Assembly (NCBI RefSeq): GCF_900107375.1
Contig: NZ_FNPT01000006.1
Span: 248,001 to 312,000, forward strand
Direction: 5' to 3'
DNA length: 64,000 bases
Origin: Lysobacter sp. yr284
Lineage (GTDB): Bacteria > Pseudomonadota > Gammaproteobacteria > Xanthomonadales > Xanthomonadaceae
Under the pieces are notes generated by a model that did no database searches, was not told where the DNA came from, and saw only the letters and a program-made list of their open reading frames with translations. Position 1 is the stretch's first letter; each line of letters begins with the position of its first letter. Both the position numbers and the translations under genes were made by a program. Positions 5,756 to 44,900 of the stretch are shown here, one piece after another.

Positions 5756-5811
5756 TCCCGCGTCCCACCGCCGCAGCGGATCGGCGACAGCGCGATTGCG
5801 CGAACGCGACG

Positions 5812-13689: not shown

Positions 13690-13830
13690 AGGGTCCGCGG
13701 CGCCCGCGAGGGCGGGCGCAACCTGTGCGTCCGAACGCGTTCGGCCTGAGCGGGTCGTCACGGATCGGAACATCGGCGGCGCGGCGGTACCCGCGTGCGT
13801 CGGCCGGAGCTTGCTGAGAGGTCACACCCG

Positions 13831-14922: not shown

Positions 14923-15178
14923 GGCGCGCGAGTCCGTCGCGCCCGCCTGGGCCGACACCCGCATCCGTCCGTCTGCGCGCCGCATCGGCGCGCAGGCGCG
15001 CGCGCGTCCGTCGCGCAGCGCGGTGTTGCGGCGCAAAACAAAACTCGTCGGTACAACAAGATGCGCGACGAAATTAAATCGCGCCGCGAGGTTCGGGTTT
15101 GTCGCGGGCGCGCGTCTGTACCTAGGTAACCAGACCGCGGGCACACGCGGCGGGCCCACCGAACGAGGGGAGTAACGA

Positions 15179-18100: not shown

Positions 18101-18592
18101 TTCTGCTCGACCAACCTGCCGCTCAACGGCGCCGGGTTCTCGGCGGGCGGCCCCTACGACGGCGTGTTCGGCTTCACCTACGACCCGGCCAAGGACGCGC
18201 CCAACGGCGGCGCCGGCTTCGCCAAGAACGTCGGCGGCAACGAGCTGCCCAACGCGCCGCACATCACCGCCAGCCTGAGCCCGCAATACACCTTCATGAC
18301 CGGCCATGGCGACTTCACCGTGCGCGCGGACCTGTACTACCAGGGGCCGAGCTGGGCGCGCATCTACCAAGACAAGATCGACCGCCTCAGCGACTGGGGC
18401 AACGTCAACGTGTCGGTCACCTGGCGCGACATCGAAAGCGATCTGGCGGTGCAGCTGTACGTCAAGAACGCGCTCGGCGGCAAGGCGATCACCGGCACCT
18501 TCCTCAACAGCGACGACACCGGCCTGACCAGCAACGTGTTCATCCAGGACCCGCGCATCATCGGTTTGACGGTGAGCAAGGGCTTCTTCTGA
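15179..18592 (+). CDS. TonB-dependent receptor with STN signalling domain
   Basis: 1137 residues. A signal peptide is followed by a secretin/TonB short N-terminal (STN) domain at about 38-112 (FDIPQQRLDTALSEYARQSG), an Ala/Pro-rich linker, a TonB box-like TLDTIVVTA at about residue 172, the plug (PIAISAFGGKDL ... VEVLRGPQGTLYGRNATAG) and a 22-strand-type barrel ending in an aromatic residue (GLTVSKGFF). The STN domain marks it as a transducer receptor talking to the FecR/FecI pair just upstream. The ligand is unknown: the plug motif is of the broad CirA/sphingomonad type, not a clear siderophore class. Start supported by GAGGGGAG upstream. Confidence 0.92.
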   Translation: MQLRDRKQSLLSASRRGVLFLALLPCLAAYAGERSAANARFDIPQQRLDTALSEYARQSGTQLLYAPELAAGKTARAVRGEKSNRQALEELLDGTGLGYATNASGAILISNTAAGGAAAEGAAAAPSAGEKQGNAPEVAEMEPAAASPQAQDDQQAPVATASPARNPNATTLDTIVVTAQKKVENIQKVPIAISAFGGKDLGDRKIETGGDLVTATPNVTFSKTNFASYNFQIRGIGTQALSVTTDPAVAVSFNSTPLIRNRLFEQEYFDVERVEVLRGPQGTLYGRNATAGVVNMIPSLASTDGYEANVKGEVGNYSTARVTGMVNVPLTDSFAFRLAGQYTKRDGFDHNEVTGRDVNDRDLLSTRMSFAFKPSEKFDASLVWEHFQEDDRRARTGKQLCNNDPGPVTIGSTTVSRIDRNYMSQGCQDGSLYGDSAFGVPNGASIPFVLGAQSTAIGYLLDPNGNFIDTVSIIKPGTNPYEGVTQSHDLRKIATTYDPKFEAKNDIFQFNLSSDVGDHLRFVSQTLYTRDKYYSTQDYGRFQSNPIFTNTNSGVSVFGPNGPEPAYNAFPDGKYCDPQLGCSDRLLIVDVVDSYSKQWSQEFRLQSSYDGPFNFSVGANYLEYKVDESYYVFSNGFTALADLFFNGNGAGTRPGACSPSGTRVDPNFGETVPCVYIDPNPLGSINGQGHNYFRSRNLAETKSAAIFGEGYFQLRDNLRLTAGVRFTNDRKITTPYPTQTLLADSTGTAGVPQLFGGYVGAGYPALANIRQTWNEPTGRLVLDWSPDLSWTDSTMFYASASRGYKAGGTNSPGIGANPAALSFEQRDPEFKPEFVNAFELGMKNVMAGGKFVLNGTVFYNDYKDYQVSQIQDRATLNENFDAKTWGAELEAVWRPTEAFQLSGNVGLLRTRVGSNQYSIDVMDRTAGNADWVVVKPWLQLASNCVAPKELVEAVLKAQYQLSAPFNNAANVLNSFCSTNLPLNGAGFSAGGPYDGVFGFTYDPAKDAPNGGAGFAKNVGGNELPNAPHITASLSPQYTFMTGHGDFTVRADLYYQGPSWARIYQDKIDRLSDWGNVNVSVTWRDIESDLAVQLYVKNALGGKAITGTFLNSDDTGLTSNVFIQDPRIIGLTVSKGFF

Positions 18593-27372: not shown

Positions 27373-28386
27373 TCAGCGCGCGGGCGCTGCGGCCCGCGCG
27401 GCGGCGTCGAGTTCGGCCTTGGAATAGAAGCCCGAGCGCTGCACGAACGCCTCCACCGCGGCCTGGTCGGTGCAGTCTAGCTCGACGATCTCGCGCAGCG
27501 CGCGCTGCGGATCGGCGGCGCGCGCGTAGTAGTCGCGCACGATCGCATAGCCCATGTAGTAGCCCAGGTCGCGCACGCCGTAGCGCGGGTCGGGCGCGTT
27601 GTAGAGCCACTTGTCGTAGGAGGCGGCGTACATCTCGGCGCGGAAGTCGCGCTTGAGCCGGGCCTCGTTGCGCGGGCCGTAGTCGACGTAGTCCAGCGGC
27701 GGCAGCCGGCCGGCGACGCGCTCGGCGACGAAATCGGCCGCGCCTTCGTACACCGCCTGCGCCAGCAGGGTCGGCCCCGGGCCTTTCTGCTGGGTGTGCA
27801 CGTACTCGTGCACCAGCAGCAGCGGCAGGCCCAGGCTGGGGCGGGTGGCGAAATAGCGGCTCAGGTTGCTGCGGCGGGCGTCGGCCATTTCCGAGACATC
27901 CGCCTCGGGGCCGCCGCCGGCCAGCTCCGCGCCGATCAGCACCTTGTCGCCGAGCGTGGTGCCGCTGGAGTTGAGGCAGCCGATGGCGAAATAGATCGTC
28001 GCCGGCCGCAGCGGCGGATACAGCGCGCGCAGTTTCTCGATCCGCTGCGGGGCGTCGGCGGTCTTGCCCGCCAGCGCCAGGGTGCCGGCGCGAATCGAGG
28101 CCCAGAACTTCGGATAGCGCTCGATCGCCTGCAGATAGCACTCCGGCGTATAGCCCTTGGCCTGCATGAACGCCTGCAGGCCGGGCGTGCCGGGCTCGAT
28201 GTAGTCGCGCAGCAGGATGCGGCGCTGCTCGGCGGGGTCGGCGCTGGCGCGGATCGCGTCGTAGGCGGTCCAGAAGCGGGGAATGTCGGAGGTTTCGAGG
28301 CGATGCGCCTGCGCGGCCGCGCTCGGTGTTGCGAGCAGTCCCGCCACCGCGCAGCACAGCGCGGCGCCCCACGTCCTGATGTTCAT
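27373..28386 (-). CDS. Secreted zinc metalloprotease-like protein (DUF2268 type)
   Basis: 337 residues with a signal peptide (TWGAALCCAVAGLLATPSAA). Zinc-binding motif HEYVH within LLLVHEYVHTQQKG (about residues 193-197) and a downstream Glu in YEGAADFVAER that fits the third ligand of gluzincins. This layout matches the predicted Zn-dependent protease family DUF2268, an exported family with little experimental work. Two Cys pairs (PECYLQ, IGCLNS, ELDCTD) may form disulfides. It is transcribed towards the delta-60 repeat gene. Substrate unknown. Confidence 0.75.
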   Translation of the reverse strand: MNIRTWGAALCCAVAGLLATPSAAAQAHRLETSDIPRFWTAYDAIRASADPAEQRRILLRDYIEPGTPGLQAFMQAKGYTPECYLQAIERYPKFWASIRAGTLALAGKTADAPQRIEKLRALYPPLRPATIYFAIGCLNSSGTTLGDKVLIGAELAGGGPEADVSEMADARRSNLSRYFATRPSLGLPLLLVHEYVHTQQKGPGPTLLAQAVYEGAADFVAERVAGRLPPLDYVDYGPRNEARLKRDFRAEMYAASYDKWLYNAPDPRYGVRDLGYYMGYAIVRDYYARAADPQRALREIVELDCTDQAAVEAFVQRSGFYSKAELDAAARAAAPAR

Positions 28387-28485
28387 CGTCCTGCGACTCC
28401 CGACCGCACCGCATTCCCGGTTGCGCCAACGATGGTGCCCGCGCCGCGCGCCGCGACGCAGGGCCGGAAGTCATGGCGCGCGGCT

Positions 28486-29328
28486 TCAGCGCGCGATGTA
28501 GAAATCGACCGGCACCACCACCTCGACCGGATCGCCCAGCTCCGCCGGCGGCGCCGGCACCGGGCCGGCGCGCTGCGCGACCGCGAGGGCTTCCTCGTCC
28601 AGGCCCGGGTAACCGCTGGACGCTTCGATGCGGGCGGCGCGCACGCGGCCGTCGCCGGCGACGCTCATGCGCAACTGGGCCACGCCTTGTTGGTGCAGGC
28701 GGCGGGCCTGGCGCGGGTAACGCTTGAAGCGCTCCAGGTGGCCGAGCAGCAATTGCTGCCAGTGCCGCGGGACTTGCCGGCCGGCGCCGGCGGCGTCTTG
28801 AGCGGCGGCGTAGCGCGGCGCCGGCACGGCAGCGACGGTGGGCGGCGCCGATGCGCTGGCGGCGGCCTGGTCTTGCGCGGCGGGTTGTTCGGCGGGCGCG
28901 CTGGACGCGGCCGGTTGCGGCGCGCTGGCGGTTTCGCCCAGCGCTTGCGGCGGTTGCGGCAACGGCCGGTCGCGCGCGACTTCGCGCGGCGGCCGCGCGC
29001 GGCTCGCCGCGCGTTCGGGCTGCGCCGGCCCTGGCGGCAGGTCCAGCGCCGGCACCGGCGGCGCTTTCGGCAGCAGCGACAGTTCCAGCACCACCGCGGC
29101 CGCGGGCGGCGTCGGCGGCAGCGCCGGCGCGGGCGTGCGCAGGTGCAGCAGCGCGGCCAGCAGCGCGGCGTGCACGACTGCGGTGACCGCCACGCCGCCG
29201 AGCCAGGGGTCGCGTTCGCGCGCGGCCGGGCGCGGCGCCTGCGCGTGCGGCCGCGCACGATGCAGCGCGCGCGAGCAGGTGCGCGCCGGCCGCGCGGCGG
29301 CGGCCGCTTCCAGCGCGGGCGCGCTCAA
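28486..29328 (-). CDS. TonB-family energy transducer of the hemophore locus
   Basis: 280 residues from a TTG start that overlaps the Slam-like gene stop (TTGA). N-terminal cytoplasmic tail rich in Arg, one transmembrane helix (GGVAVTAVVHAALLAALLHL, about residues 37-56), a long Pro/Ala-rich periplasmic spacer, and a C-terminal TonB domain: YPRQARRLHQQGVAQLRMSV and ASSGYPGLDEEALAVAQRAG. It couples inner-membrane proton motive force to outer-membrane receptors. No exbB/exbD lies alongside, so it must use those encoded elsewhere. Its position as the last gene of the receptor/Slam operon suggests it is dedicated to that receptor. No ATG/GTG start is available before the membrane helix. Confidence 0.85.
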   Translation of the reverse strand: MSAPALEAAAAARPARTCSRALHRARPHAQAPRPAARERDPWLGGVAVTAVVHAALLAALLHLRTPAPALPPTPPAAAVVLELSLLPKAPPVPALDLPPGPAQPERAASRARPPREVARDRPLPQPPQALGETASAPQPAASSAPAEQPAAQDQAAASASAPPTVAAVPAPRYAAAQDAAGAGRQVPRHWQQLLLGHLERFKRYPRQARRLHQQGVAQLRMSVAGDGRVRAARIEASSGYPGLDEEALAVAQRAGPVPAPPAELGDPVEVVVPVDFYIAR

Positions 29329-30833
29329 AACGCGCGCTCCAGCTTGAGGCTGACGCTGTCGCGGTCGTAGGCGTACAGCCAATCGATCGAACTGGCGGTG
29401 CGGTTGCGCTTGAAGGTCAGGCTCGGGGTGAAGCCGGCGAACGCCAGCCGCGGCAGGCGCACGATCGCGGTGGCGTTGAATTCGTCGTCGCGGCGGCGGG
29501 CCTGGAAGGTCGGGTTCCACTCGTCGTGGGTACGTTTGCGCAGCGAGGCGAACAGCAGCAGCGACACGCCGGCGTCGAACTGCTTGGACAGGCCCAGGCG
29601 CGCGCCGCGCTGCAGGTAGGCCTCGGTGTCGCGGCGGGTCTCGCGCCGGGCCAGGTCGAGGCCGCCGAACAGCAGCCACTGCTGCGGCAGCGCGCGCCAC
29701 AGCGTGGCGTAGACCGCGGTGGTCGGCCCGTCGTAGCCGGCCAGGTCGCTGCGGCGATAGCGCATGCGCTTGTGGTCGCCTTCCAGCTTGAACAGCCAGC
29801 GCGGCGAGATCGTCCAGGTCCAGTCCGCGCGCGCGCCCCAGGCGGCGTACAGGCTGCGCTGGCCGAACGCCGAATACTCGAACTGCGGCGCGGCGGTGAA
29901 CGCGTGGCGCGCGCTGGCGTAGGAATAGCCGGCGCTGGCGCTGGCGGTGGTCTCGTTGTAGCCGCTGTGGCCGCGGTAGGAATAGCCGTACAGCAGCGAG
30001 CGCAGGTACAGGCCGTGGTGGCCGCGCAGCGGCTGGCGCCGGGTCAGGCCGGCGTCGAAGTCCAGGCCGCCGCCTTCGATCGCCGCCGGCAGGGTGCGCT
30101 CGATCGCGCACTGGCCGTCGGGCGCGGCCAGCAGGCAGGTGCGGCTGGCCGAGGACTGGTTGAGGTTGTCGTTCCAGGTCGGCCCGAGCGCGAAGCTGCC
30201 GTGCCAGCCGCGGCGGTTGCGCAAGGCGCGCAGGAAGGTCTCGACCGTGCGGCGCACGCCGGCGGTCTTGGCGTCGCCGGCGTCGAGCGCTGCGGCGATG
30301 GCCCCGAAGCGCTGCTCGGCCTCGGGGTCGAGCTGGTTCTCGAACAGCACCCGCGCCAGTTCCAGTTGCGCGGGCAGGAAATCGGCCTGCAGTTGCAGCA
30401 GCGCGCGGTAATCGCGTTCGGCGCCGCGCAGGTCGCCGTCGGCGCGCGCCAGCGCGCCTTGCGCATACAGTTCGAGCATGCGGTCGCGCTGCGGCAGCGC
30501 GCGATAGCGTTGCAGCAGCGGCCGCGCCTGTGCCCAGCGGCGCGCGCTGACGGCCTGGTAGAGCGCGGCGGCGACGGCATCGGGATCGCCCGGATCGAGA
30601 TCGGCGAGCGCGGCCGCGTCGGTTTGCGCGGCGTTCTCGTCTTCGAGCAGGGCGCGTTCGCGTTCGGCCTGGCGCTGTTCCAGGCCGTGGTCCAGGCGCA
30701 GGCGGGTGTCGTCGCGGTCCTGGGCGGAGTTCTGCGCGGGCGCGGCGAAAGAAAACAGGCACAGCGCCAGGCCGGCAGCGAGGCCGGCGGCGCGCGCGGC
30801 GGTCGCGCTGGATACGGTTCGGTAAGGCTTCAT
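29325..30833 (-). CDS. Slam-like outer-membrane protein (surface/secreted protein assembly modulator)
   Basis: 502 residues. Signal peptide (GLALCLFSFAAPAQ), then a TPR-like helical domain (about 40-190: AALYQAVSARRWAQARPLLQ, GDLRGAERDYRALLQLQADF, LARVLFENQLDPEAEQRFGA), followed by a beta-barrel (about 200-502) with many alternating aromatic strands and a terminal Phe (VSLKLERAF). This TPR-plus-DUF560 barrel is the architecture of Slam proteins, which move TbpB-like lipoproteins or soluble hemophilins across the outer membrane. The gene directly upstream encodes a TbpB-barrel-like secreted protein, its probable cargo. It is followed by TonB with a 4-base overlap. Assigned as the soluble-cargo (hemophilin) type because the cargo lacks a lipobox. 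Confidence 0.83.
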   Translation of the reverse strand: MKPYRTVSSATAARAAGLAAGLALCLFSFAAPAQNSAQDRDDTRLRLDHGLEQRQAERERALLEDENAAQTDAAALADLDPGDPDAVAAALYQAVSARRWAQARPLLQRYRALPQRDRMLELYAQGALARADGDLRGAERDYRALLQLQADFLPAQLELARVLFENQLDPEAEQRFGAIAAALDAGDAKTAGVRRTVETFLRALRNRRGWHGSFALGPTWNDNLNQSSASRTCLLAAPDGQCAIERTLPAAIEGGGLDFDAGLTRRQPLRGHHGLYLRSLLYGYSYRGHSGYNETTASASAGYSYASARHAFTAAPQFEYSAFGQRSLYAAWGARADWTWTISPRWLFKLEGDHKRMRYRRSDLAGYDGPTTAVYATLWRALPQQWLLFGGLDLARRETRRDTEAYLQRGARLGLSKQFDAGVSLLLFASLRKRTHDEWNPTFQARRRDDEFNATAIVRLPRLAFAGFTPSLTFKRNRTASSIDWLYAYDRDSVSLKLERAF

Positions 30834-30879
30834 CGTCGCCCGCCGGAACCGCGCCGCCGCCTCCCTGCGGCGACGCAGC

Positions 30880-30909
30880 GGCCCGCGGCCGGCGAACCGG
30901 CCGCGGGCC
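30880..30909 (-). terminator. Strong hairpin between hemophilin-like gene and Slam gene
   Basis: Perfect 13-bp inverted repeat GGCCCGCGGCCGG / CCGGCCGCGGGCC around a CGAA tetraloop, 17 bases after the hemophilin-like stop and 46 before the Slam start. No T-run follows, so it could partially stop transcription or shield the 3' end of the upstream message, giving more cargo than transporter. Confidence 0.6.
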
Positions 30910-30925
30910 TTCACCGGCGAATCCC

Positions 30926-31666
30926 TCAGGGATTCTTGGTGCCGCCGAAGGCGGTGTCGTACAGGCGGTCGTCGAAGCGGGTCACGCCGGCCAGCGCGGC
31001 CGCGTTGGCGCCGAAGAACTGGCCGCTGACGCCGCCGGTGGCGACGGTGGCGCCGCCGACCGTGGCGCTGGCGCCGCTGCCGCTGAAGCCGGTGCCGCTG
31101 ATCGCCGCGGTGCCGATGTCGACGGTGAGGGTGCCGTTGCTGAGGCTGCCGCTGAGCTGGTTGGCGCCGAAGTTGGCGTTGAAGGTGCCGTTGAGCTTGT
31201 TGGCGCCGTTGTACTGGTTCAGCCCGGCCACGGTGTAGGTGGCGGTGCCGGAGGCCGGTACGGTGGTGCCGGCGTTGTCGCCCGCGTAGTAGACGGTGTG
31301 GGTGCCGTCGGTCGGCGCGCTCTGCGACCACTCGCCGAAGTAGACGTTGTGGCCGGCGATCTTGGCGAAGTGGAACACGCCCATGCCGCTGTGGGTCGGC
31401 GGGGTGATCGGCGAGACCAGGCTGGAGACGCCGTTGGCGTCGGCCGGGGCGAAGGTCTGCAGCGCCTGGAAGTCGACCTTGCGGTCGGTGCCCATGGTGT
31501 ACACGCCGATGCCCGGACGGCCGGCGATGTGCGGGCCGGCGTTGACGGTGGACACGCCGGCTTCGACGTAGGTGTTGTCGCTCTGGTCGCCGACCACGGC
31601 GGCCTGGGCGACGCCGGCCAGCGAGGCCAGGGCGAGGGCGGACAGGGTGAGGCTCATGCGCTTCAT
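30926..31666 (-). CDS. Secreted hemophilin-like (TbpB-barrel) Slam cargo
   Basis: 246 residues. Signal peptide SALALASLAGVAQA with no lipobox, so a soluble exported protein. N-terminal part (about 25-125) has GRPGIGVYTMGTDRKV and FHFAKIAGHNVYFGEWS; the C-terminal part (about 130-246) is Gly/Asn/Thr-rich with repeated short strands (LNGTFNANFGANQLSG, LSNGTLTVDIG, VSGQFFGANAAALAGV), matching an eight-stranded TbpB-type barrel. This handle-plus-barrel layout is that of hemophilins (HphA/Hpl), soluble heme carriers exported by Slam. Next to it are a Slam gene, a TonB-dependent receptor and TonB. Only few His residues are present, so the heme ligands would need structural checking; heme binding is inferred. 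Confidence 0.78.
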   Translation of the reverse strand: MKRMSLTLSALALASLAGVAQAAVVGDQSDNTYVEAGVSTVNAGPHIAGRPGIGVYTMGTDRKVDFQALQTFAPADANGVSSLVSPITPPTHSGMGVFHFAKIAGHNVYFGEWSQSAPTDGTHTVYYAGDNAGTTVPASGTATYTVAGLNQYNGANKLNGTFNANFGANQLSGSLSNGTLTVDIGTAAISGTGFSGSGASATVGGATVATGGVSGQFFGANAAALAGVTRFDDRLYDTAFGGTKNP

Positions 31667-31808
31667 GTGGAACTCCTTTGAATGATTGGAACGAGGGATG
31701 AACTTTGGCTAGAGCGCGCGATGCGCCCGGTCGCTCATCCATTGCTTCGTGCGCAACAGATTCGTGGGTGCGCCGTCCCTGGCGCGGCGCGCCGCCGCGG
31801 CGGCGTCT

Positions 31809-34800
31809 TCAGAACTTGGCGGTCAGGCTCAGCTTCAAGGTCCGGCCCGGCGCGGCCATCGCCGAGCGGGTCAGCGGATCGACGTAGTACAGGTCGCCCA
31901 GGTTGGTGCCGACCAGCTCCAGCGCCAGCGCGTCGCTGACCCGGTAGTTGACGTAGGCGTCGTAGGTGGTGATGCGGTCCCAGGCCAGCGGCACGTTGAA
32001 ATACGCGCCCAGGCGCTGTTCCTGGTAGAGGTCGTAGTCGCCGTTCTCGTAGCCGCTGTGGTGGACCACGCGCGCGCCGACTTCCAGCCGGCGCTCGAGG
32101 AAACGGCCGCCGAGGGTCCAGTTCGCCGACAGCTTGGGCAGCGCCTGGGTGATCAGATAGCCGCCGACGAAGCCGGCCTGCACGCAGTCGGGCACGCCGA
32201 TGCGGCCGGTGGGATCGTTGATCGCCGCCACGCTCTCGTCGCAGACCTCGTTCTCCAGATTGCGCGCCACGCTGAGGTCGCTGAAGAAGCGGCCGTTGTC
32301 GTAGCGGCCCTGGAATTCCAGCCCGCGCAGGGTCTGCTTGTCGAGGTTGGAGAACTGCAGCTGGCCGCTGCGTTCGATCACGTTGCGGGTCTGGTGGTGG
32401 TAGTAGGTCAGCTTGAGGTCGGCGTAGTCGGCGCCCAGCGCGCGGCTGAAGTCGTGCACATAGGCCAGCTCGTAGTTGTAGGCGCGCTCGGGCTTGAGCG
32501 GCGCCACCGGCAGCGCGGCGGAGAAGCCCAGCGTGCTTTCGAACATGCTCGGGTAGCGCCGCGCCTGGCTGTGGCGGAAGTACAGCCGCGCGTTGTCGCT
32601 GACGTTGAAGGTCGCTGCCACCGTCGGGGTCCAGCCGCTGCCGTCGTGGTGCTGCGCCTGCTGTTGCAGGAACAGCGGCTGCAGCGAGGCGCTGGCGCGG
32701 CCGTAGTCGGTGCCGTCGAGGCTGCCGTTGAGGAAGACGTTGTCGGCGCGGCGGAAGCGGCCGTTCGCGTCCGGACGCCAGTCCGGGGCGACGTTGCGCA
32801 CGGTGTAGGTCGCCTGTTCGATCTGGGTCGCCACCACCTGCGGGGTCCAGCCGAAACGCTCGGCGTTGCGGCGGATGGTCGCGATGCGCGCGTCCAGCGC
32901 GGTTTGGCTCATGCGCGGGTCGCGGGTGAAATAGGTCATCGCGTAGCGCTGCGGGAACAGCACCTGGCCCAGGCGGGTGTCGCCCTTGGCCAGCTGATCG
33001 GCAAGGAAATCGTCGAACGCCCAGTACGACTGGTGGCGCGCGCCCGCGCTCAGGCTCAGCCGCTCGCTCGCGCGCCAGTCCAGCTTGAGGCTGAAGTCGC
33101 GCTCCTCGCGCCGGCCGGCGCGCGGGAACATGCGCCAGCCGTCGGCGACGCCGTTGTACTCGTCGTCCGAGCGCAGCGTCTCGTGCTGGTAGTTGAAGCC
33201 GACGGTGAGGTCCAGGTCGGAACGCAGCGCGCTCTTGTTGCTGAAGGTCAGGCCCTTGCGGTCGTGGTGGGCGTTGGCCAGCGCGGTGTTGCGCAGCAGC
33301 GGGTCGTCGAAGGTCGCCCAGTTCGGAAAGCCGCCGGCGCTGTAGGTGTCGCTGAGCGTGCGCGTGGTCCACAGGTTGGCGTAGACGTCGAACCAGCGCC
33401 CGCCGGGCTGCCACTTGTACTCCAGGTTGTAGGCCTTGGCCTCGACCTTGCTCAGCGGCCACTGCGGCGCGCCGGTGTCGGTGGTGTCGCGCCAGGAGAT
33501 GCGCGTGGGCAGGATCTCGCCGTAGTCCGAGCGGGTGTCGCGAAACCCGAACTTCAGGGTCTGGCGTTCGCTGGCGCGCAAGGTGGCCTTGAACAGCCAC
33601 GACTCCATCTCGCTGGAGGTGTTGGGCACCTCGTCGCCGGGATGGTAGAAGCGCGCCAGGCTGGTGATGTAGTTCAGGCTCTTGGCCGGATCGTAGGGCC
33701 GGGCGTAGAAATCGCCGCCGTTCTCGCCGGAGAAATGGTTGCCCTTCTTGCGGTAGGCGTAGGCGGCGAGCAGGTCGAAGCGCTCCTCGCGCAGGCCCAG
33801 CGCCAGGCGCATGGCGTGGTCGTCGCCGGCGATCGGGTCGTTGCCGCCGCTGCTGCGCACCGGCTTGTACAGGGTGGGGTCGTAGTAGGTCGCCTGCGGA
33901 TTGCTCGGGAAGCCGGGAATGGTGCGGTAGTCCTGGCCGGTGGACAGCCGCGGCAGGCGCGGGTCGGTCGCGTTGTCGCTGCTCTCGGCCTTGAACTCGC
34001 CGCCGAAGCGCTCGCCGGGCTTGAGGATGTCGGCCACGTCGAGGGTGTTGACCACCACCGCGCCGCCGATCGAACTGCTGACGTTGCGGGTGAGGTTCGG
34101 CCCCTTGATCACCTGGATGCCGCCGATCAGGTTGGGATCGATGTAGTTGCGGTTGTTGGCGCCGTTGTAGCCGCGCCAGACGGTGAGCGCCTGCTCGGTG
34201 CCGTCGATGGTCAGCGGGACCCGGCCCGGGCCCTGGATGCCGCGGATGTTCGGGTCCAGCGCGCCGCTGTTGCGCGCATCGCCGCTGTAGACGTTGAGCA
34301 TGCCCTTGAACACGTCGGCCGGCGCGGCGCCCTTGTAGCGCTCGATCTGCGCCTTGCCGGCGTAGACGGTGGACAGGTCGAGGTCGTAGACCTGGTCGTA
34401 GCCGCGTTCGTCGCGCTGGGACGCGTCGTCGTAGGCGGCCGCGCCGACGCTGAGCGTGTCGGTCGTCAGCGGCGCATCGCCGCCCTGCGCGCGCGCCGCG
34501 GCCTTGCGCAGCACCACCGTGCCGGCGCCGCTGCGCTGCGCGCCCAGGCCGGTGCCGGCGAGCAGCGCGCGCAGCGCCTGCGCATCGTCGTAGTCGCCGT
34601 GCAGCGGCGCCGAGCGCAGGCCTTCGCCTTCGGCGCTGTCGAACACCACCTGCACGCCGCTGATCCGGCTGTACTGGCGCAGGGCCGCGGCCAGCGGCTG
34701 CGCCGGGATCTCGTAGCGGCGCACGGCGGGCGCTAGCTGCGCGGCCGGCGCCTGCGCGCCGGCGACGGGAACGCACAAGCCGGTCAGGGCCAGGTGGATG

Positions 34801-34859
34801 CAGGCCGCCAGCGCGAGGCGCGCGGACGGCCGCCGGCGGCGGGCCGGGGCGAAGGACAT
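31809..34859 (-). CDS. TonB-dependent receptor with STN domain, probable hemophore receptor
   Basis: 1016 residues. Signal peptide; STN domain at about 47-120 (YEIPAQPLAAALRQYSRISG, DDAQALRALLAGTGLG); plug with VFKGMLNVYSGDARNSGALD, IRGIQGPGRVPLTIDGTEQA and GGIQVIKGPNLTRN; C-terminal barrel with typical strand pairs and terminal Phe (LKLSLTAKF). The plug resembles heme/hemophore and TbpA-type receptors (HphR-like). Order on the minus strand is sigma, FecR, receptor, cargo, Slam, TonB. The STN domain would signal through the upstream FecR/FecI pair when the hemophilin-like protein binds. Heme as the cargo's ligand is inferred. Confidence 0.88.
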   Translation of the reverse strand: MSFAPARRRRPSARLALAACIHLALTGLCVPVAGAQAPAAQLAPAVRRYEIPAQPLAAALRQYSRISGVQVVFDSAEGEGLRSAPLHGDYDDAQALRALLAGTGLGAQRSGAGTVVLRKAAARAQGGDAPLTTDTLSVGAAAYDDASQRDERGYDQVYDLDLSTVYAGKAQIERYKGAAPADVFKGMLNVYSGDARNSGALDPNIRGIQGPGRVPLTIDGTEQALTVWRGYNGANNRNYIDPNLIGGIQVIKGPNLTRNVSSSIGGAVVVNTLDVADILKPGERFGGEFKAESSDNATDPRLPRLSTGQDYRTIPGFPSNPQATYYDPTLYKPVRSSGGNDPIAGDDHAMRLALGLREERFDLLAAYAYRKKGNHFSGENGGDFYARPYDPAKSLNYITSLARFYHPGDEVPNTSSEMESWLFKATLRASERQTLKFGFRDTRSDYGEILPTRISWRDTTDTGAPQWPLSKVEAKAYNLEYKWQPGGRWFDVYANLWTTRTLSDTYSAGGFPNWATFDDPLLRNTALANAHHDRKGLTFSNKSALRSDLDLTVGFNYQHETLRSDDEYNGVADGWRMFPRAGRREERDFSLKLDWRASERLSLSAGARHQSYWAFDDFLADQLAKGDTRLGQVLFPQRYAMTYFTRDPRMSQTALDARIATIRRNAERFGWTPQVVATQIEQATYTVRNVAPDWRPDANGRFRRADNVFLNGSLDGTDYGRASASLQPLFLQQQAQHHDGSGWTPTVAATFNVSDNARLYFRHSQARRYPSMFESTLGFSAALPVAPLKPERAYNYELAYVHDFSRALGADYADLKLTYYHHQTRNVIERSGQLQFSNLDKQTLRGLEFQGRYDNGRFFSDLSVARNLENEVCDESVAAINDPTGRIGVPDCVQAGFVGGYLITQALPKLSANWTLGGRFLERRLEVGARVVHHSGYENGDYDLYQEQRLGAYFNVPLAWDRITTYDAYVNYRVSDALALELVGTNLGDLYYVDPLTRSAMAAPGRTLKLSLTAKF

Positions 34860-34972
34860 GCAACGAACTCCTCAAGTCGGATCGGAGCCCACTGCCGCGG
34901 CCGGAACGATCGGCGCGGATGTGAGCGGCGTTTGGCTTGAGAAGCGATGCGCGTCTCGCGGCTACGAACTAC

Positions 34973-35004
34973 AGGACGACGGCCGTGCGCGCTTACCCAA
35001 CCCC
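34973..35004 (-). promoter_or_regulatory. Candidate ECF-sigma promoter element (copy before the receptor)
   Basis: A 32-base block shared, at identical spacing, with 36144-36175: on the minus strand GGGGTTGGGTAAG, about 12 variable bases, then TCGTCCT. It is 114 bases upstream of the receptor start. TCGTC resembles the -10 'CGTC' of ECF promoters and GGGTAAG the -35. Together the two copies would put fecR and the receptor operon under the locus's own sigma factor. Confidence 0.55.
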
Positions 35005-35102
35005 GCGGCGGGGTTTTTTCGAACGCGGTCGTGCGGCGGGCGTATCTCGACCGGGTCGTCCCAGTCGAGACGGCTCAGTCGAGCCGGTTCAATCGCGCCG
35101 GC

Positions 35103-36113
35103 TCAATCGCGCGGCGGCCGCACCAGCAAGGCGCCGCCCGGCAGCCGTTGCACGCGCAGGTTCGCGCGCTGCGCCACCGCGGCGATGGCCTCGTCGCTGC
35201 GGTCGGCGCGCAGGCTGGCGCTGATCCGCGGCGCGCGTTCGAACGATCCCAGCGTCCACACCGGCGCGCTGCGGTAGCGGGCGATGCGGTGCAGCGCCTC
35301 GTCGGCGCGCACCGCGTCGAACGCCAGTTCGCCCTGGCGCCAGCCGGCGATGTCGGCCGTCGCCGTCGCCTGCGGCGCCGTCGGCGCGCGGCCTTCGGCG
35401 TAGCTCGCCGTCTGGCCGGCGGCGACGCTGACCGGCGCGGCGCCGCCGGAATCGACTTCGACCAGGCCCTCGCTGACCGCGGTGTACACGCCGGTTGCGC
35501 GCCGGCTCACTTCGAACGCCGTGCCGATGTCGCGCACGCTGCCGCCGAGCGCGTCGACCCGGAACGGCCGCGCGTCGCCGTGCGCGACCTGGAACCAGGC
35601 GTTGCCGCGCAGCAGTTCGATGCGGCGTTCGCGTCCGTCGAAGTCCACCGCGACCGCGGAGTCGGCATCGAGCGCGAGCCGCGAGCCGTCGGCGAGGGTG
35701 TAGCGCGCCGCGGCGATGCCGGTGCGGTAATCCGCGCGCAGGCTCAGGGCCAGGGTCGGCGCGGCGGCGACGACAGCCGCCAGGCAGGCGGCGCTGGCCA
35801 GGCCCCAGGCCGCGAGGCGCCGGCGCGCTCGCCGCGGGCGCGCGGCGAAGGCAGGACGCGGCGCCGCGGTGGGCGAAGCCGGCGCGGATTCGAACGCGTC
35901 GCGCATCGACCCCAGCGCGTGCCACAGCTCGCGTTGCCGCGCGAACGCCTGGCGGTGCGCGGGGGGGCGCCGCCAAATCTCGAAGGCGGCCAGCTCGGCC
36001 TCGTCGATCTCGCCCGAGGCCAATCGCGCCACCCAGGCGCGGGCCTGCCCGGCGGGGTCGTCGCTGCCGGGGTAGGGCGGGTCGGTCGGATCGGTGTGCG
36101 CGGACGGGGTCAT
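35103..36113 (-). CDS. FecR-family anti-sigma regulator of the hemophore locus
   Basis: 336 residues. N-terminal DUF4880-like cytoplasmic part (ARAWVARLASGEIDEAELAA, IWRRPPAHRQAFARQRELWH), transmembrane helix at about 102-122 (LAAWGLASAACLAAVVAAAP), then the periplasmic FecR domain: RYTLADGSRLALDADSAV, RGNAWFQVAHGDARPFRV, GTAFEVSRRATGVYTAVSEG, and a C-terminal DUF4974-like segment (ISASLRADRSDEAIAAVAQR). It sits between its sigma factor (36196) and the STN receptor (31809), the normal order for this signalling trio. The 243-base gap before the receptor and 82-base gap after sigma each contain the same promoter-like block. Confidence 0.9.
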   Translation of the reverse strand: MTPSAHTDPTDPPYPGSDDPAGQARAWVARLASGEIDEAELAAFEIWRRPPAHRQAFARQRELWHALGSMRDAFESAPASPTAAPRPAFAARPRRARRRLAAWGLASAACLAAVVAAAPTLALSLRADYRTGIAAARYTLADGSRLALDADSAVAVDFDGRERRIELLRGNAWFQVAHGDARPFRVDALGGSVRDIGTAFEVSRRATGVYTAVSEGLVEVDSGGAAPVSVAAGQTASYAEGRAPTAPQATATADIAGWRQGELAFDAVRADEALHRIARYRSAPVWTLGSFERAPRISASLRADRSDEAIAAVAQRANLRVQRLPGGALLVRPPRD

Positions 36114-36143
36114 GCGGTGGCGGAAGCTGCCTGGACTTGGATG

Positions 36144-36175
36144 AGGACGAACGCCGCGCGGCCTTACCCAACCCC
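36144..36175 (-). promoter_or_regulatory. Candidate ECF-sigma promoter element (copy before fecR)
   Basis: Second copy of the 32-base block seen at 34973-35004, with GGGTAAG and TCGTCCT at the same distance, ending about 30 bases before the fecR start. Conservation of both ends with divergence of the middle is what a promoter of one sigma factor would show. Confidence 0.55.
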
Positions 36176-36195
36176 CCGCCGCGGCGCCGGCCGGT

Positions 36196-36729
36196 TCAGC
36201 CGCCGCTGCGGGCCTGGTCGAGCAGGCGCAGCGCGCGCTGGATGTGTTTTTCCACCGTGGTCGAGGACACCCCCAGCAATTGCGCGATCTCGCGCTGGGT
36301 CAGCCCTTCGAAGCGGTTGAGCATGAAGATGCGCTTGCTCGGCTCGGGCAGCGCGCGCGCCGCGCGCGCGACCCGCTCCAACTCGTCGCGCGCCAGCGCC
36401 ACCCGCGCGGTGTCGGGGGTTTCCTCTTCTTCCAGGCAGGCCGCCGCAGCCTCGCGCAACTTGCGCCGGCGCGCCTCGCTGCGGCCCTGGTCCACCGCGT
36501 GATGGTGGGCGAGGCGATAGAGATAGTTGCGCGCATCCGCGATCGGCGGCTCGCCGGCCACCGCGATGACCTTGAAGTACATCGATTGCAGCGCGTCCTC
36601 GGCGGTGGCCCGGTCCAGGTAGCGGCCGAGGTAGCGCAACAGCCGCTCGCGCTCGGTGACCAGCAGCGAGGTGAGGACAGCGGCGTTGGAAGGCATCGTC
36701 TCGGCGCGCGGCCGTCGGGCGCGGCCCAT
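36196..36729 (-). CDS. ECF sigma factor, FecI-like, of the hemophore locus
   Basis: 177 residues. Region 2: LLRYLGRYLDRATAEDALQS and YFKVIAVAGEPPIADARNYL; region 4: LPEPSKRIFMLNRFEGLTQR followed by the HTH EIAQLLGVSSTTVEKHIQRA. It is a FecI-type sigma factor heading the FecR/receptor/hemophilin/Slam/TonB gene series. A strong Fur box (36762-36784) lies 33 bases upstream of the ATG at 36729, so the sigma gene is repressed when iron is plentiful. A second start at 36696 (MPSNAAVL) is equally compatible with the domain and would place the Fur box about 65 bases upstream. Confidence 0.9.
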   Translation of the reverse strand: MGRARRPRAETMPSNAAVLTSLLVTERERLLRYLGRYLDRATAEDALQSMYFKVIAVAGEPPIADARNYLYRLAHHHAVDQGRSEARRRKLREAAAACLEEEETPDTARVALARDELERVARAARALPEPSKRIFMLNRFEGLTQREIAQLLGVSSTTVEKHIQRALRLLDQARSGG

Positions 36730-36761
36730 CTGCAGGAATCGGAGTCGCCGCGACTCTAGCT

Positions 36762-36784
36762 CAAATGATAACGATTGTCATTTG
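36762..36784. promoter_or_regulatory. Fur box upstream of the ECF sigma gene
   Basis: Near-perfect inverted repeat with core ATGATAACGATTGTCAT flanked by CAA and TTG, matching the Fur consensus GATAATGATAATCATTATC at most positions. It stands out as A/T-rich in a GC-rich region and lies directly before the ECF sigma gene. Iron-bound Fur would repress the sigma factor and so the whole hemophore locus. Confidence 0.88.
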
Positions 36785-36854
36785 CGGCTTTGGTTGGACC
36801 GGCGTCGCTTGCCACGCGCTCGCGCGGCCGTACCAGCCCGTGCGAGCGGCTTCT

Positions 36855-37178
36855 TCAGGCCGCGCGCGCCGCTGCGGGCCAGTCGATCGCAAGTTCCGCG
36901 CGCACCGCCTCGCCCTGGCCGCTGAGCCAGCGCGCCACCCAGCCCGCCGCCGCCGCATCGGTGCGGAACGGTCGGCTGACGTGGTCCTTGAGCCCGAGGT
37001 GGCGACGGATCGTGGCGATCGCGCCGTGCCCGTCGCGGGCCGGGGTGACCGTGGCCAGCCAGGCCTCGCAGTCCTCGTCGGGTACCGCGACCAGGTGCGA
37101 GGGGAAGATCGAGCCGGCGAAGGGGGCCTCCCAGTGGAACCCGGGCGGCAGCTCGTGCAGGGGCGAGTGAGTGTCCAT
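36855..37178 (-). CDS. Hypothetical protein, 107 residues
   Basis: No signal peptide, no transmembrane segment. Sequence features: an acidic/aromatic N-terminus (PGFHWEAPFAGSIFPSHLVA), a Cys in DEDCEAWLATV, and an amphipathic C-terminal helix (AAAGWVARWLSGQGEAVRAE). No family recognised. It lies upstream of the Fur box and reads the same way as the ECF sigma gene but is separated from it by 125 bases containing the sigma promoter, so it is probably not part of the hemophore operon. It could belong with the flavoprotein gene behind it (65 bases away, same strand). Confidence 0.55.
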   Translation of the reverse strand: MDTHSPLHELPPGFHWEAPFAGSIFPSHLVAVPDEDCEAWLATVTPARDGHGAIATIRRHLGLKDHVSRPFRTDAAAAGWVARWLSGQGEAVRAELAIDWPAAARAA

Positions 37179-37243
37179 GGCGCGGACGCTAGAACGCCCG
37201 CGTCTCGCGAACTAAGACGCGCCGCGCGCGGCGGACGCGCAGT

Positions 37244-38618: not shown

Positions 38619-38973
38619 GGAACTAATGATGTTACGTGATGCGGGGCATTGTCAAACCGGGCGACCGGGACGAAGGCGCGACGCGCCCGCTGCGGCGGGG
38701 TCGGGGTTCGCTGCGGTTATCGATCGCCCGTGTCGGCGGGCGGGCGCACGCGCTCGGCGGAGATGGCCTGCGGCTCCTCTGATGTGCCTTAGGGCGAAGA
38801 AAAACCGCTTTCGATGACGCAGTCGCCGTGTGCGGGGGGCGCTTCCCTGGGCGAAGTTCGATGTCGGAAGACAGCACGAAGCAGTTTCGCGCCTGAGCGA
38901 TTCGGATTCGTCCCAATCGGCCCAAGCCCTTGCCGATCAGCCTTTTACGGGAGCCTGGGCGCCCGCGCCTGTG
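38619..38973. other. 355-bp intergenic region before the giant repeat protein
   Basis: Separates the divergent Rrf2 operon and the DUF11-repeat gene. ATG-rich A/T patch 38618-38640 (ACTAATGATGTTACGTGATG) is next to the Rrf2 start and is a natural operator/promoter candidate. A frame open from 38830 (GTG) could give an earlier start for the repeat protein but has no export signal at its beginning. Confidence 0.4.
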
Positions 38974-41900
38974 ATGCGTTTCGCCTTCATGTCCGCGCCG
39001 GAGTTCGCCCGGCGATTGAAGGGGTTAGTGAATCAGGGGGCGTCATCCGTGTTGGGATCGATCTTCAAGCAAACGGCTGCGGTCGGCGGCAGCGTGGGCA
39101 GGTGGCTCCTGCTTGTCTCGCTGTTGGCGGGAGCCGGCAACGCCCTGGCCCAGAACGCGACCAACCGCGCCAGCGTCGCCCCCCCTGTGGGCATCGTCAA
39201 CACGGGCGCGGGCTGCACCGCCGCGGGCGGCGTCTTCGACAACGCCACCGGCAGTTGCACGGCGACCGACGACGACCCGATCTTCCGGCTCAACCTCAGC
39301 AAGACCGCCGGCACCGCGACTGGGCCGACCGCCGCCGGCGTGTATTCGGTCACCTATACCATCGCAGTGGCCAACGGCACTGCCGCGGCCGGCACCTACG
39401 GGCCGATCAGCGACGCCCCCTCGTTCCCGACCAACCTGCAGGTCACCGGCGCCGCCTGGACCTGCACCGGCGGCTGCACCGCCGGCAGCGCCACCGGCGC
39501 GGGGCCGTACCAACTCGCCGCCGCCAACACCGCGATCGCCGCGAACGCGACCCACACCTATTCGCTGACGATCAACTTCGTCTACACCGACGACACGCCC
39601 GCGCCGGCGTGTTCGGCCAACACGCCCGGCCAGGGCCTGTACAACCGCGCGGACCTGCCCAGCGGCGCGGAGAACGACACCACCGACAACGCCGCCTGCG
39701 TGAACCCGCCGCAGCCGCCGACTCCGGCATTGGACCTGACCAAGACCGCAGGCGCGATCACCGATACCGACACGCCGGCCAACGGCGCGGGCGATGTCGG
39801 CGACACCGTCGCTTACACGTTCGAAGTGACGAACACCGGCAACGTCACCTTGACCGACGTCAACGTGACCGATCCGCTGCTGCCGAACCTCGCGTGCACG
39901 TCGGTAACGCTGACGCCGGGCGAGACCCAGACGCTGACCTGCACGGCGGGCAACGTCTACACGCTGACCCAGGCCGACGTGAACGACGGCGCCCTTGTGA
40001 ATACGGCCACCAGCACCGGTACGACGCCGAGCGGCGGCATCGTGGACGACATCGACAGTGCGACGGTGACGATCGCGGGCGCTCCGCAGTTGACCCTGAC
40101 CAAGACGGCCGGTGCGATCACCGATACCGACACGCCGGCCAACGGCGCGGGCGACGTCGACGACACCGTCGCCTACACCTTCGCAGTGCAGAACACCGGC
40201 AACGTCACCTTGACCAACGTCAACGTGACCGACCCGCTGCTGCCGAACCTCGCGTGCACCGCGGTGACCCTGGCCCCGGGCGAGACCCAGACGCTGATCT
40301 GCACGGCGGGCAACGTCTATACGTTGACCCAGGCCGACGTGAACGCGGGCAGCCGTGCCAACACGGCGACCGGCACCGGCACCACGCCGAGCGGCGGCAC
40401 CGTGGACGACACCGACGATGAGACGGTGACGATCGCCCAGGCGGCCGACCTGACCTCGGAAAAGACTCAGACCAGCAACGCCGACGAAGACGGCAGCGGC
40501 TCGATCACCGTGGGCGACACGCTGAGCTACCGCGTCCGCGTGACCAATACCGGCAATGTGACGCTGACCGACGTGGCCGTCAGCGACGACAAGATCACGC
40601 CGAACACGATCACGTGCGCGACCGTGGCCCCGGGTGCGTTCTGCGACCTGGTCGGTACCTACAAGGTCCAGCAGAGCGACGTTAACGCCGGCTCGATCGT
40701 CAACAAGGCGACGGTGAACACGTCGACGCCGGGCGTCTGCCCGACCGGCTCGACCGACGCCAAGTGCAACCCGACGGTGACCGTGCCGGTGACCCAGACG
40801 GCTGACCTGAGCTCGGAGAAGACCCAAACCACCAATGCCGATGAAGACGGCAGCGGCAGCATCACTGTGGGCGACACGCTGAGCTACCGCGTCCGCGTGA
40901 CCAATACCGGCAATGTGACCCTGACCGACGTGGTCGTCACCGACGACAAGATCACGCCGAACACGATCACCTGCGCGACCGTGGCTCCGGGTGCGTTCTG
41001 CGACCTGGTGGGTACCTACAAGGTCCAGCAGTCCGACGTGAACACGGGCTCTATCGTCAACAAGGCGACGGTGAGCACGTCGACGCCGGGCGCGTGCCCG
41101 GCTGGCTCGACCGACGCCAAGTGCAACCCGACGGTCACCGTGCCGGTCACCCAGACGGCTGACCTGACGTCTGAGAAGACCCAGACGGCCAATGCGGACG
41201 AAGACGGCAGCGGCAGCATCACCGTGGGCGACACGTTGAGCTACCGCGTGCGGGCGACCAACACCGGCAACGTGACCCTGACCGACGTGGTCGTCACCGA
41301 CGACAAGATCACGCCGAACACGATCACCTGTGCGACCGTGGCCCCGGGTGCGTTCTGCGACCTGGTCGGTACCTACAAAGTCCAGCAGTCCGATGTGAAC
41401 GCGGGCTCGATCGTCAACAAGGCGACGGTGAGCACCAGCACGCCAGGCGTGTGCCCGGCGGGCTCGACCGACGCCAAGTGCAACCCGACGGTCACCGTGC
41501 CGGTGACCCAGACGGCCGACCTGACCTCGGAAAAGACTCAGACCAGCAATGCCGATGAAGACGGCAGCGGCAGCATCACCGTGGGCGACACGCTGAGCTA
41601 CCGCGTCCGCGCGACCAACACCGGCAACGTGACCCTGACCGACGTGGTCGTCACCGACGACAAGATCACGCCGAACACGATCACCTGCGCCACTGTGGCC
41701 CCGGGTGCGTTCTGCGACCTGGTCGGTACCTACAAGGTCCAGCAGAGTGACGTCGATGCGGCTTCGATCGTCAACAAGGCGACGGTGAGCACCAGCACGC
41801 CGAACGTCTGCCCGACCGGCTCGACCGACGCCAAGTGCAACCCGACGGTCACCGTGCCGGTCACGCAGACGGCGGACCTGAGCTCGGAGAAGACCCAAAC

Positions 41901-44900
41901 CAGCAATGCCGACGAAGACGGCAGCGGTTCGATCACCGTGGGCGACACGCTGAGCTACCGCATCCGGGTGACCAACACCGGCAATGTGACCCTGACCGAC
42001 GTGGTCGTCACCGACGACAAGATCGCGCCGAACACGATCACCTGTGCGACGGTTGCTCCGGGCGCCTTCTGCGACCTCATCGGTACGTACAAGGTCCAGC
42101 AGTCGGATGTGAATGCCGGCTCGATCGTCAACAAGGCGACCGTTGCCACCTCGACGCCGAACGTGTGCCCGGCCGGTTCGACGGATGCCAAGTGCAACCC
42201 GACGGTCACCGTGCCGGTCACGCAGACGGCGGACCTGAGCTCGGAGAAGACCCAAACCAGCAATGCCGACGAAGACGGCAGCGGTTCGATCACCGTGGGC
42301 GACACGCTGAGCTACCGCATCCGGGTGACCAACACCGGCAATGTGACCCTGACCGACGTGGTCGTCACCGACGACAAGATCGCGCCGAACACGATCACCT
42401 GCGCCACGGTGGCCCCGGGTGCGTTCTGCGACCTGGTCGGTACCTACAAGGTCCAGCAGTCCGATGTGAACACCGGCTCGATCGTCAACAAGGCGACGGT
42501 GAGCACTAGCACGCCGAACGTCTGCCCGACCGGTTCGACCGACGCCAAGTGCAACCCGACGGTGACCGTCCCGGTCACCCAGACGGCGGATCTGAGCTCG
42601 GAGAAGACCCAAACCACTAACGCCGATGAAGACGGCAGCGGCAGCATCACCGTGGGCGACACGCTGAGCTACCGCGTGCGGGTGACCAACACCGGCAACG
42701 TGACCCTGACCGACGTGGTCGTTACCGACGACAAGATCACGCCGAACACGATCACCTGTGCGACCGTCGCTCCGGGTGCGTTCTGCGACCTGGTCGGTAC
42801 CTACAAGGTCCAGCAGTCCGACGTCAACGCGGGCTCGATCGTCAACAAGGCGACCGTTGCTACGTCGACACCGAACATCTGCCCGACCGGCTCGACCGAC
42901 GCCAAGTGCAACCCGACGGTCACCGTCCCGGTGACCCAAAAGGCCGATCTGACGTCCACCAAGGCCCTGACCGGCAATGCCGACGAGGACGGCAGCGGTT
43001 CGGTGACGGCCGGCGATACGTTGACCTACACGATTACGGTCGCCAACACCGGCAACATCGCGCTGACCAACCTGACGGTGACCGACGACAAGATCACGCC
43101 GAACTCGACCGTCTGCGCGACCGTCGAGCCGGGCCAGACCTGCGTGCTGACGGGTACCTACAAGGTCACCCAGGCCGACGCGAACACCGGACTGGTGCGC
43201 AACACGGCCGTGGTCCGGGCCGAGACGCCGCCGGGCGTGCCGTCGCCCTGCGTGGCCGGCGGCAGCGATCCCAAGTGCAACCCAACGGTGACCGTGCCGG
43301 TGGCCCAGGCCCCGGGCCTGACCTCGGTCAAGACCATGGACCGCAACGCCGATGAGGACGGCAACGGCGCGGTGAGCGTCGGCGACACGCTGACCTACTC
43401 GATCACGGCGACCAACACCGGCAACGTGACCCTGACCGACGTGGTCGTCAGCGACGACAAGATCGCGCCGAACACGATCACCTGCGCGAGCGTGGATCCG
43501 GGCCGTACCTGCGTGCTGACCGGTACCTACAGGATCGTCCAGGCCGATGTGGATGCCGCCGCCGTGGTCAACACCGCGACGGTGACCACCACCACGCCGA
43601 ACGTGTGCCCGGCGGGCTCGACCGACAAGGCCTGCAAGCCGACCGTGACCGTGCCGATCCAGGCGCATCCGGCCGTGGCCATCGTCAAGGTCGCGACGCT
43701 GACGGTCGACAACGCCACCCAGGGCGTCGGCAACGTCGGCGACGTCATCAGCTATGCGGTGCGCATCACCAACACCGGCAACATCACCCTGCACGACATG
43801 GGCACCAGCGACGTACTGGAGAACTACGCGCCGACCCAGCTGCGCTGTGGCACCACCACGCTCGCCCCGGGCGCCAGCACCGATTGCGAGGTCTACACCC
43901 ACACCATCACCCGCGAGGAAGCCCGCGCCGGCGGCACCCTGGACAACGTGGTCACGGTCACCGCGCACTACGGCAGCGTGGGCGGCGGCCAGACCTCGGG
44001 CACCGCGACCGCCACCGGCACGGCGATCATGCCGATCGAGCCGGAGCAGGACACCGACCTGGTCGTCAGCAAGGAAGCGCGTCCGCAGCGGATCAAGATC
44101 GGCGACCTGGTGCGCTACACGGTGACCGTCAAGAACGTCGGCGAGACCGACGCGATCGACGCGACCCTGGTGGACACGCCGCCGGCCGGCTTCAGCCTGG
44201 TCGAAGGCAGCCTGCAGGTCGCCGACCGCGACGGCCAGGGCCGCCTGGTCGGCACCTCGCCGGTCAGCGTGGACGGCCTCGACATCCAGGCCGGCCAGTC
44301 GGCCACGGTGGTCTACCTGCTGCGCGTGGGCGCCTCGGTACGGCCGGGCAGCCACATCAACAGCGCCTACGCCGAGGACGGCGGCAAGCGTTCCAACATC
44401 GCCACGGCGACGGTGGAATTGGTGTCCGACCCGCTGCTCGACGAATCGCTGCTGCTCGGCACCGTGTTCGACGACCGCGACGAGGACCGCTGGCAGGATC
44501 CGGCCGACTTGACCGACCTGCGCGTGCAGGGCGGCTTCGCTCCGGGCGCCTACATCGCCGGTTCGACCACGGTCGACCGCGGCGACGGCGCCCGGCCGGA
44601 ACCGGACGCCAGCGCGCCGATGCTGCACGGCATCGACCTGGGCAAGATCGGCGGCCGCCAGTCCGACGCCGACCCGGTCGCCGCGCATACCGTGACGATC
44701 AGCCAGTTGCTGCGCGAGCCGGGCTTTACCGACGACTTCGTGCTGACCAACGCGCAGGGGGTGACCGTGCGCATGGACGCGGCCGGCAACACCCGGGTGG
44801 AGCGTTCCGGCGATGCCGCCAAGGGCCTCACCGGCGCCAACCCCAAGGTCGAACGCCGCGTGGCGCAGGCGCAGGGCGGCTACCGCGTCGACTACATCGT

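Follow-up and report, generated by a model that had tools for sequence, protein, structure and literature searches.

Candidate promoters of a probable Has-type signalling switch at a hemophilin locus of Lysobacter sp. yr284

A locus in the genome of Lysobacter sp. yr284 joins a secreted hemophilin (HphA) and its Slam translocator, the exporter of a type XI secretion system (T11SS), to a sigma/anti-sigma pair of the FecI/FecR kind. How would such a pair be wired to a heme-scavenging system, and could the hemophilin itself be the signal? The locus lies in a stretch of 64,000 nucleotides (contig NZ_FNPT01000006.1, positions 248,001 to 312,000; hereafter the window). It runs along the minus strand from 36,780 to 28,486 in the order Fur box, extracytoplasmic function (ECF) sigma factor, FecR, TonB-dependent receptor with an STN domain, hemophilin, Slam and TonB. 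From its sequence and from analogy with known systems, we consider it quite likely that this is a heme-scavenging operon like hphR-hphA-hsmA of Acinetobacter baumannii, controlled by cell-surface signalling of the Has type. The gene order is already known, having been published for Acinetobacter. What appears to be new is evidence on the wiring of the switch, and a pair of candidate ECF promoters is the main addition to what is known. A survey of the open-access literature, through its listings and passages, returned no experimental test of an ECF pair beside hemophilins.

Genes of the locus and the nature of its cargo

An earlier note on this DNA, made from the letters alone, had described a locus for the secretion and uptake of a hemophilin-like hemophore, equipped with its own Slam, receptor, TonB and FecI/FecR pair on one strand, and our family searches agreed with that description gene by gene. 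Each named gene is an open reading frame of the minus strand with the coordinates given in Table 1, and matches its family above the curated cut-off. The translocator has a TPR domain and a full SlipAM barrel and lies beside a cargo with a TbpB barrel, the combination expected of a Slam. The STN receptor, a DUF4880-bearing FecR and the ECF sigma factor form one run, as expected of cell-surface signalling genes. HphA_C and SlipAM each matched the genome (6.25 Mb, 46 contigs) a single time, in both cases in this locus.

By sequence and predicted structure, the cargo is a hemophilin. Its AlphaFold2 model, built from 30 sequences, had a mean pLDDT of 89.5 and a pTM of 0.86. The best fold match by E-value was the holo-HphA of Stenotrophomonas maltophilia (PDB 8gmm; TM 0.79/0.84, 46% identity), which also matched by sequence (phmmer 7.1e-48), and the Vibrio harveyi hemophilin gave TM 0.80/0.90. 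Ranks 1-8 were all hemophilins, from S. maltophilia, V. harveyi, A. baumannii, Haemophilus parainfluenzae and H. haemolyticus (top matches 8gmm, 8gm3, 7re4, 7rea, 8glo and 6om5), followed by meningococcal HpuA and TbpB. The model thus has the hemophilin/TbpB-barrel fold that the earlier note proposed, so the objection from an unlike fold, one half of what that note held could overturn it, falls away. The signal peptide, read by eye, has no lipobox.

Heme is the likely ligand. The axial heme ligands of A. baumannii HphA are H43 and H106, and a single histidine serves in the H. haemolyticus hemophilin. In a profile alignment, H43 and H106 fall opposite H46 and H92 in the cargo; in chain 7re4_A they are H33 and H96 by manual count, each ten off the paper's numbering. 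An alignment of 15 rows had H46 invariant and H92 nearly so, and in one of 30 sequences all 30 have both. The earlier note had argued from the few histidines that the cargo might bind something else; there are five (H46, H92, H99, H106, H123), and both aligned ligands are among them. Because these ligands are conserved, we regard a cargo for something other than heme as very improbable. Precedents for it are the cobalt receptor protein (CrpC) of Xenorhabdus cabanillasii, which a passage of PMC12282271 places among known T11SS cargoes, and some second hemophilin copies that apparently lack one or both ligands. Against it stand the invariance of H46 and H92, the match to the heme-binding domain HphA_N, a top structural match that is a holo-HphA, and the heme oxygenase genes of related operons. 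Second hemophilins in which one or both ligand histidines are missing by eye were seen at L038:9039-9788 and L039:9911-10660 (the upstream copy in each) and at L028:3492-4241, and are perhaps for another ligand.

The Fur box of the earlier note was recovered without mismatch on one strand. Allowing three mismatches, the window holds four matches to TGATAAYNATTRTCA against 0.59 expected, two of which are the two strands of this one site. The sigma-70-like promoter under it is the only one found in 28000-37200, where 0.4 were expected. Sixteen of 34 loci, among them the window, had a Fur-like site scoring above shuffles (p<0.05) upstream of their sigma gene; no such site was found at any of the 11 sphingomonad or three Stenotrophomonas loci in this comparison.

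Table 1. Features of the hemophilin locus, with window positions and supporting matches
Feature	Position	Strand	Evidence
Fur-box-like site TGATAACGATTGTCA	36766-36780		0 mismatches to TGATAAYNATTRTCA on one strand
Sigma-70-like promoter of sigma gene, ATGACA-17-TAGAGT	36753-36781	-	Fur site overlaps
ECF sigma factor (FecI/HasI-like), 177 aa	36196-36729	-	Sigma70_r4_2 1.2e-16
Candidate ECF promoter of fecR	36144-36175	-	GGGGTTGGGTAAG N13 CGTCCT, 30 nt before fecR ATG
FecR/HasS-like anti-sigma factor, 336 aa (DUF4880 + FecR)	35103-36113	-	FecR 5.1e-19
Candidate ECF promoter of receptor gene	34973-35004	-	GGGGTTGGGTAAG N13 CGTCCT, 113 nt before ATG
TonB-dependent hemophilin/heme receptor (HphR/HasR-like), 1016 aa	31809-34859	-	STN 4.2e-11, Plug 2.9e-12, barrel 3e-25
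Soluble secreted hemophilin (HphA), 246 aa	30926-31666	-	HphA_N 2.8e-36, HphA_C 3.3e-30, NCBIfam slam_lipo 2e-39
Slam/T11SS outer-membrane translocator (HsmA-like), 502 aa	29325-30833	-	SlipAM 4.1e-50 (288/288 positions), TPR_Slam 1.3e-22
TonB (in HasB position)	28486-29328	-	2.1e-15; inferred TTG start overlaps Slam stop

Elsewhere in the window, positions 12883-18589 on the plus strand carry a second set of sigma factor, FecR and STN receptor, whose receptor was unmatched by the hidden Markov model (HMM) of hemophilin receptors. At 38830-45591 lies an open frame of 2253 aa in which numerous nearly identical repeats, each some 120 aa long, can be made out by eye.

A candidate promoter pair and a possible heme regulon

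The word GGGGTTGGGTAAG followed by 13 nt and CGTCCT occurs exactly twice in the 6.25 Mb genome, once ahead of fecR and once ahead of the receptor gene. GGGGTTGGGTAAG alone also has only these two genome matches in the hemophilin locus, and its reversed-pattern control has none; GGGTTGGGTAAG at up to one mismatch occurs twice in the window against 0.08 expected. Both copies in the soil biocontrol species Lysobacter enzymogenes (L043) retain GGGGTTGGGTAA and CGTCCT, with a different spacer. An ungapped comparison of the two upstream regions scored 21 in the window (shuffle maximum 14) and 20 in L. enzymogenes (shuffle maximum 13). Across 27 loci, all 40 shuffles were beaten in three (the window, L043 and L046); the remaining loci fell within their shuffles, with L033, L069, L044 and L030 nearest to exceeding them.

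A two-part search took the best two-part word shared by both upstream regions, with no preset motif, in 27 loci hand-chosen from the 66 with the full set; L087 was too short, which left 26 scored loci that include near relatives and are not independent. By a criterion fixed after the first listing had been viewed, a [CT]GT[CT] right half stood in both copies in 16 of the 26 (shuffled mean 0.175, largest 2, in 40 sets). Such a right half fits the -10 element of ECF promoters. Fisher's combination of the per-locus scores gave 3.8e-4 over the 26 non-independent loci. The left half varies: in S. maltophilia it differs from that of the window, reading CGTGGGC in L114 and L077.

The two GGGGTTGGGTAAG sites could instead be a shared element of a different kind: a regulator site, for instance, or what is left of a duplication. 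They are GC-rich and have no known transcript start, which would suit that explanation, but the halves are conserved at fixed spacing between the window and L. enzymogenes although the spacer has changed, and other lineages vary the left half yet keep a [CT]GT[CT] right half at a similar distance. We think such an element improbable.

A wider heme regulon in this genome is possible. At up to three mismatches the two-part motif has 13 genome sites, of which the two perfect ones are both in the hemophilin locus, and the reversed control has six. One site lies between the sigma and fecR genes of a paralogous locus (L139; G000:C20:1-16000, 1706-11982), whose receptor gene is also preceded by CTTGGG-N17-CGTCTT. 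This locus holds genes for a sigma factor, FecR, an STN receptor, heme oxygenase, ExbB, ExbD and TonB, and upstream of them one more TonB-dependent receptor gene. It gave no match to hemophilin or Slam. Another site lies 54 nt before the presumed ATG of an unlinked heme oxygenase gene on contig C29 (2.3e-23), which together with that of L139 makes up the two heme oxygenase matches in the genome. The C29 site first arose among the 11 non-perfect sites at three mismatches and is partly post hoc, because the pattern was shortened after it had been seen. GGTTGGG-N17-CGTCYT at up to one mismatch has 30 sites against 13 for its reversed control, 26 of them with one mismatch. A fourth perfect match to it (G000:C31) was set aside as a chance hit, since it reaches into the end of a gene of the aquaporin family (MIP 1e-46), after which a hairpin was seen by eye. 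In another locus of the window's family (L026), heme oxygenase (2.8e-25), DUF454, ExbB, ExbD and TonB follow Slam in one run.

Distribution and histories of the signalling genes

The earlier note had called the FecI/FecR pair unusual, and this did not hold. Passages of PMC10483418 give the A. baumannii hemO cluster as ECF sigma factor, anti-sigma factor, hphR, hphA, hsmA, a TonB-related gene and heme oxygenase, and we saw the same order, with heme oxygenase in the run, in an A. baumannii record (L125). The window's locus has the same six genes in the same order, and the HphA fold with both histidine ligands, but no heme oxygenase or DUF454 gene. Among 94 scoreable hemophilin loci, 66 have an STN receptor, sigma factor and FecR together, in Sphingomonadales as well as Gammaproteobacteria. 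Together with the published cluster, this rules out the pair as an oddity of this genome: it is ordinary in hemophilin loci of this kind.

These counts come from 98 mapped loci, namely the window, 18 loci from 398 sampled genomes of the order and 79 named loci taken from the best 80 of 149 matches. The 97 related loci share some species and are not independent. Four could not be scored, three for want of a receptor close by (L060, L062 and L066, the Alcanivorax group) and one (L099) cut by a contig end. All three signalling parts were absent from 26 of the 94 (24 Xenorhabdus/Photorhabdus loci and two Neisseriaceae bins), and STN and FecR agreed in 93; in L089 the contig starts inside FecR. HphA_N was found in 19 of the 398 genomes, the window's included, and in three of 369 in a sample of the class; among the six genomes listed for the genus it was found in the window's only. 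The other 18 genomes of the order sample have sigma factor, STN receptor, cargo and Slam together in 18 of 18 and FecR in 17 of 18. The closest named genome by cargo, among the best 80 of 149 matches, is L. enzymogenes ATCC 29487 (94%). Two loci stood out in passing. One bin labelled as a Rickettsia endosymbiont (L112) has a Stenotrophomonas-like hemophilin locus, which is probably contamination, and in the complete genome of S. maltophilia D457 the Slam gene is broken into two frames (L117:10315-12192).

Other known systems share parts of this arrangement. The S. maltophilia loci run sigma factor, FecR, STN receptor, cargo and Slam. According to passages of PMC9249621, the has operon of Serratia marcescens runs hasI-hasS-hasR-hasA-hasD-hasE-hasB, and HasI acts on hasR and hasS. 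The window resembles it in gene order and roles, and its candidate promoters likewise precede both the anti-sigma and the receptor gene. HasR is also the nearest solved protein to the receptor by sequence (3.9e-66; next kind 7e-27). Unlike in Serratia, the hemophore is a hemophilin rather than HasA, and the exporter is Slam (T11SS) rather than type I. HasA (PF06438) was found neither in the window's genome nor, by the same search, in any of the 369 class genomes; it was also in none of four others, but a search with the same family does detect it above cut-off in one of 37 genomes (G786, 1.5e-59). The gene after the cargo is Slam, so no HasDE genes stand beside the hemophore; the search for them did not extend beyond the locus. 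Passages of PMC8406197 give the hrp locus of Xenorhabdus nematophila as HrpC, HrpB, HrpA and TonB, and the window likewise has a hemophilin, Slam, receptor and TonB. Unlike the window, the Xenorhabdus/Photorhabdus loci have their receptor downstream of the cargo.

We compared the histories of receptors and anti-sigma factors in two quick trees, which have SH-aLRT as their sole support. The receptor tree (44 rows) drew a warning of long branches, L139 among them. In it the receptors found next to a hemophilin gather in a single clade of 35 rows (support 100). Only that of Lysobacter pythonis (L108) falls outside, which suggests a receptor exchange at that hemophilin locus. The cargo-less paralogue of L139, the Alcanivorax receptors and the HasR of G786, on a very long branch (4.96), also lie outside. 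With seven rows dropped (the longest-branched and two half-filled), support is still 100 (37 rows, 33 in the clade). The window's receptor stands, with weak support, near Halopseudomonas and not the other Lysobacterales; over 95% of its length it is 44.4-45.5% identical to those of four A. baumannii records. On this tree STN changes at least two times. As one of these changes belongs to a different receptor (L139:9757), a single loss seems to account for the hemophilin receptors that lack STN.

The anti-sigma tree (36 rows) has a weak backbone, and in it the hemophilin loci are not one clade. The window's FecR groups with L139 and Stenotrophomonas loci (99), the HasS of G786 stands beside a Luteibacter hemophilin locus (97), and the Halopseudomonas anti-sigma goes with marine genera (96). 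A single clade of 25 hemophilin-locus anti-sigmas against 11 others, a group defined after the tree had been viewed, is rejected by the approximately unbiased test (p-AU 2.6e-4). Since the anti-sigmas reject one clade and the receptors do not, signalling pairs were probably exchanged repeatedly, whereas the receptor lineage that they serve has kept to the hemophilin. Inheritance of the whole signalling unit with HasI/HasS/HasR, the hemophore alone being swapped, is not borne out by the anti-sigma tree or by the placement of HasR. The hemophilin-locus anti-sigmas fall among HasS and ordinary FecRs, and on this basis we tentatively entertain, as a possible but doubtful extension, a fixed core of heme receptors to which different signalling pairs and different hemophore-exporter sets were attached repeatedly and separately. 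In the same extension, two related sigma factors of this genome, one accompanied by a hemophilin and the other not, would recognize nearly identical promoters and serve a small joint heme regulon that includes the unlinked heme oxygenase.

Proposed switch and its meaning

ECF sigma factors of this kind are held by FecR in the inner membrane. Under Has-type signalling, low iron would take Fur off the sigma promoter, as its site suggests. Slam would export the soluble hemophilin through the outer membrane, and once outside, by homology, the protein would take up heme via H46 and H92. Heme at the receptor with bound hemophilin would then, as in Has, bring the STN domain onto FecR and free the sigma factor. 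The freed sigma would start two promoters, one before fecR and one before the receptor-hemophilin-Slam-TonB run, and would thus drive the uptake genes and its own brake. TonB would power uptake, and the heme would probably be opened by an unlinked heme oxygenase; one such gene is preceded by a site of the same kind.

The sigma pair might instead answer to free heme at the receptor, or be mostly under Fur control, with the hemophilin a mere shuttle. We judge this rather unlikely. It would fit the paralogous L139, which has the signalling parts and an STN receptor but no hemophilin or Slam match, so that a kindred receptor can occupy such a locus without one; it would also fit the Xenorhabdus/Photorhabdus loci, which carry a hemophilin and none of the signalling parts. 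Against it, the inducer in Serratia is unloaded hemophore plus heme (a passage of PMC9249621), and the receptors next to hemophilins are grouped in a clade that excludes the cargo-less paralogue.

Several observations weigh against Has-type signalling at this locus, or against the promoter pair. H189 and H603 of HasR, which we take to be its heme ligands and whose positions were counted by hand, align with the invariant Y231 and, in a loose alignment, with A782 of the receptor. Because these ligands are not kept, its heme handling must differ. No heme oxygenase or ExbBD gene was found in the window's hemophilin locus. The agreement of STN and FecR comes from very few events, two STN changes on the 44-row tree, and one locus (L029, genome G238) has a sigma factor and STN receptor, but its 20 kb of sequence yielded no FecR. 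As to the promoters, the two-part search found no shared pair in 10 of the 26 loci, many single loci were not significant, and the window alone reached p=0.08. Outside the 26, the ungapped comparison gave no convincing pair in L087 or in five Halopseudomonas/Marinomonas/Marinobacterium loci, in which the gap between sigma gene and fecR is short.

The candidate promoter pair suggests that loci free of signalling, those of Xenorhabdus for example, represent a reduced state and not the model. Hemophilins have so far been studied as secreted heme-binding proteins. The pair also allows us to ask if a hemophore with no relation to HasA might, as HasA does, serve as an inducing signal.

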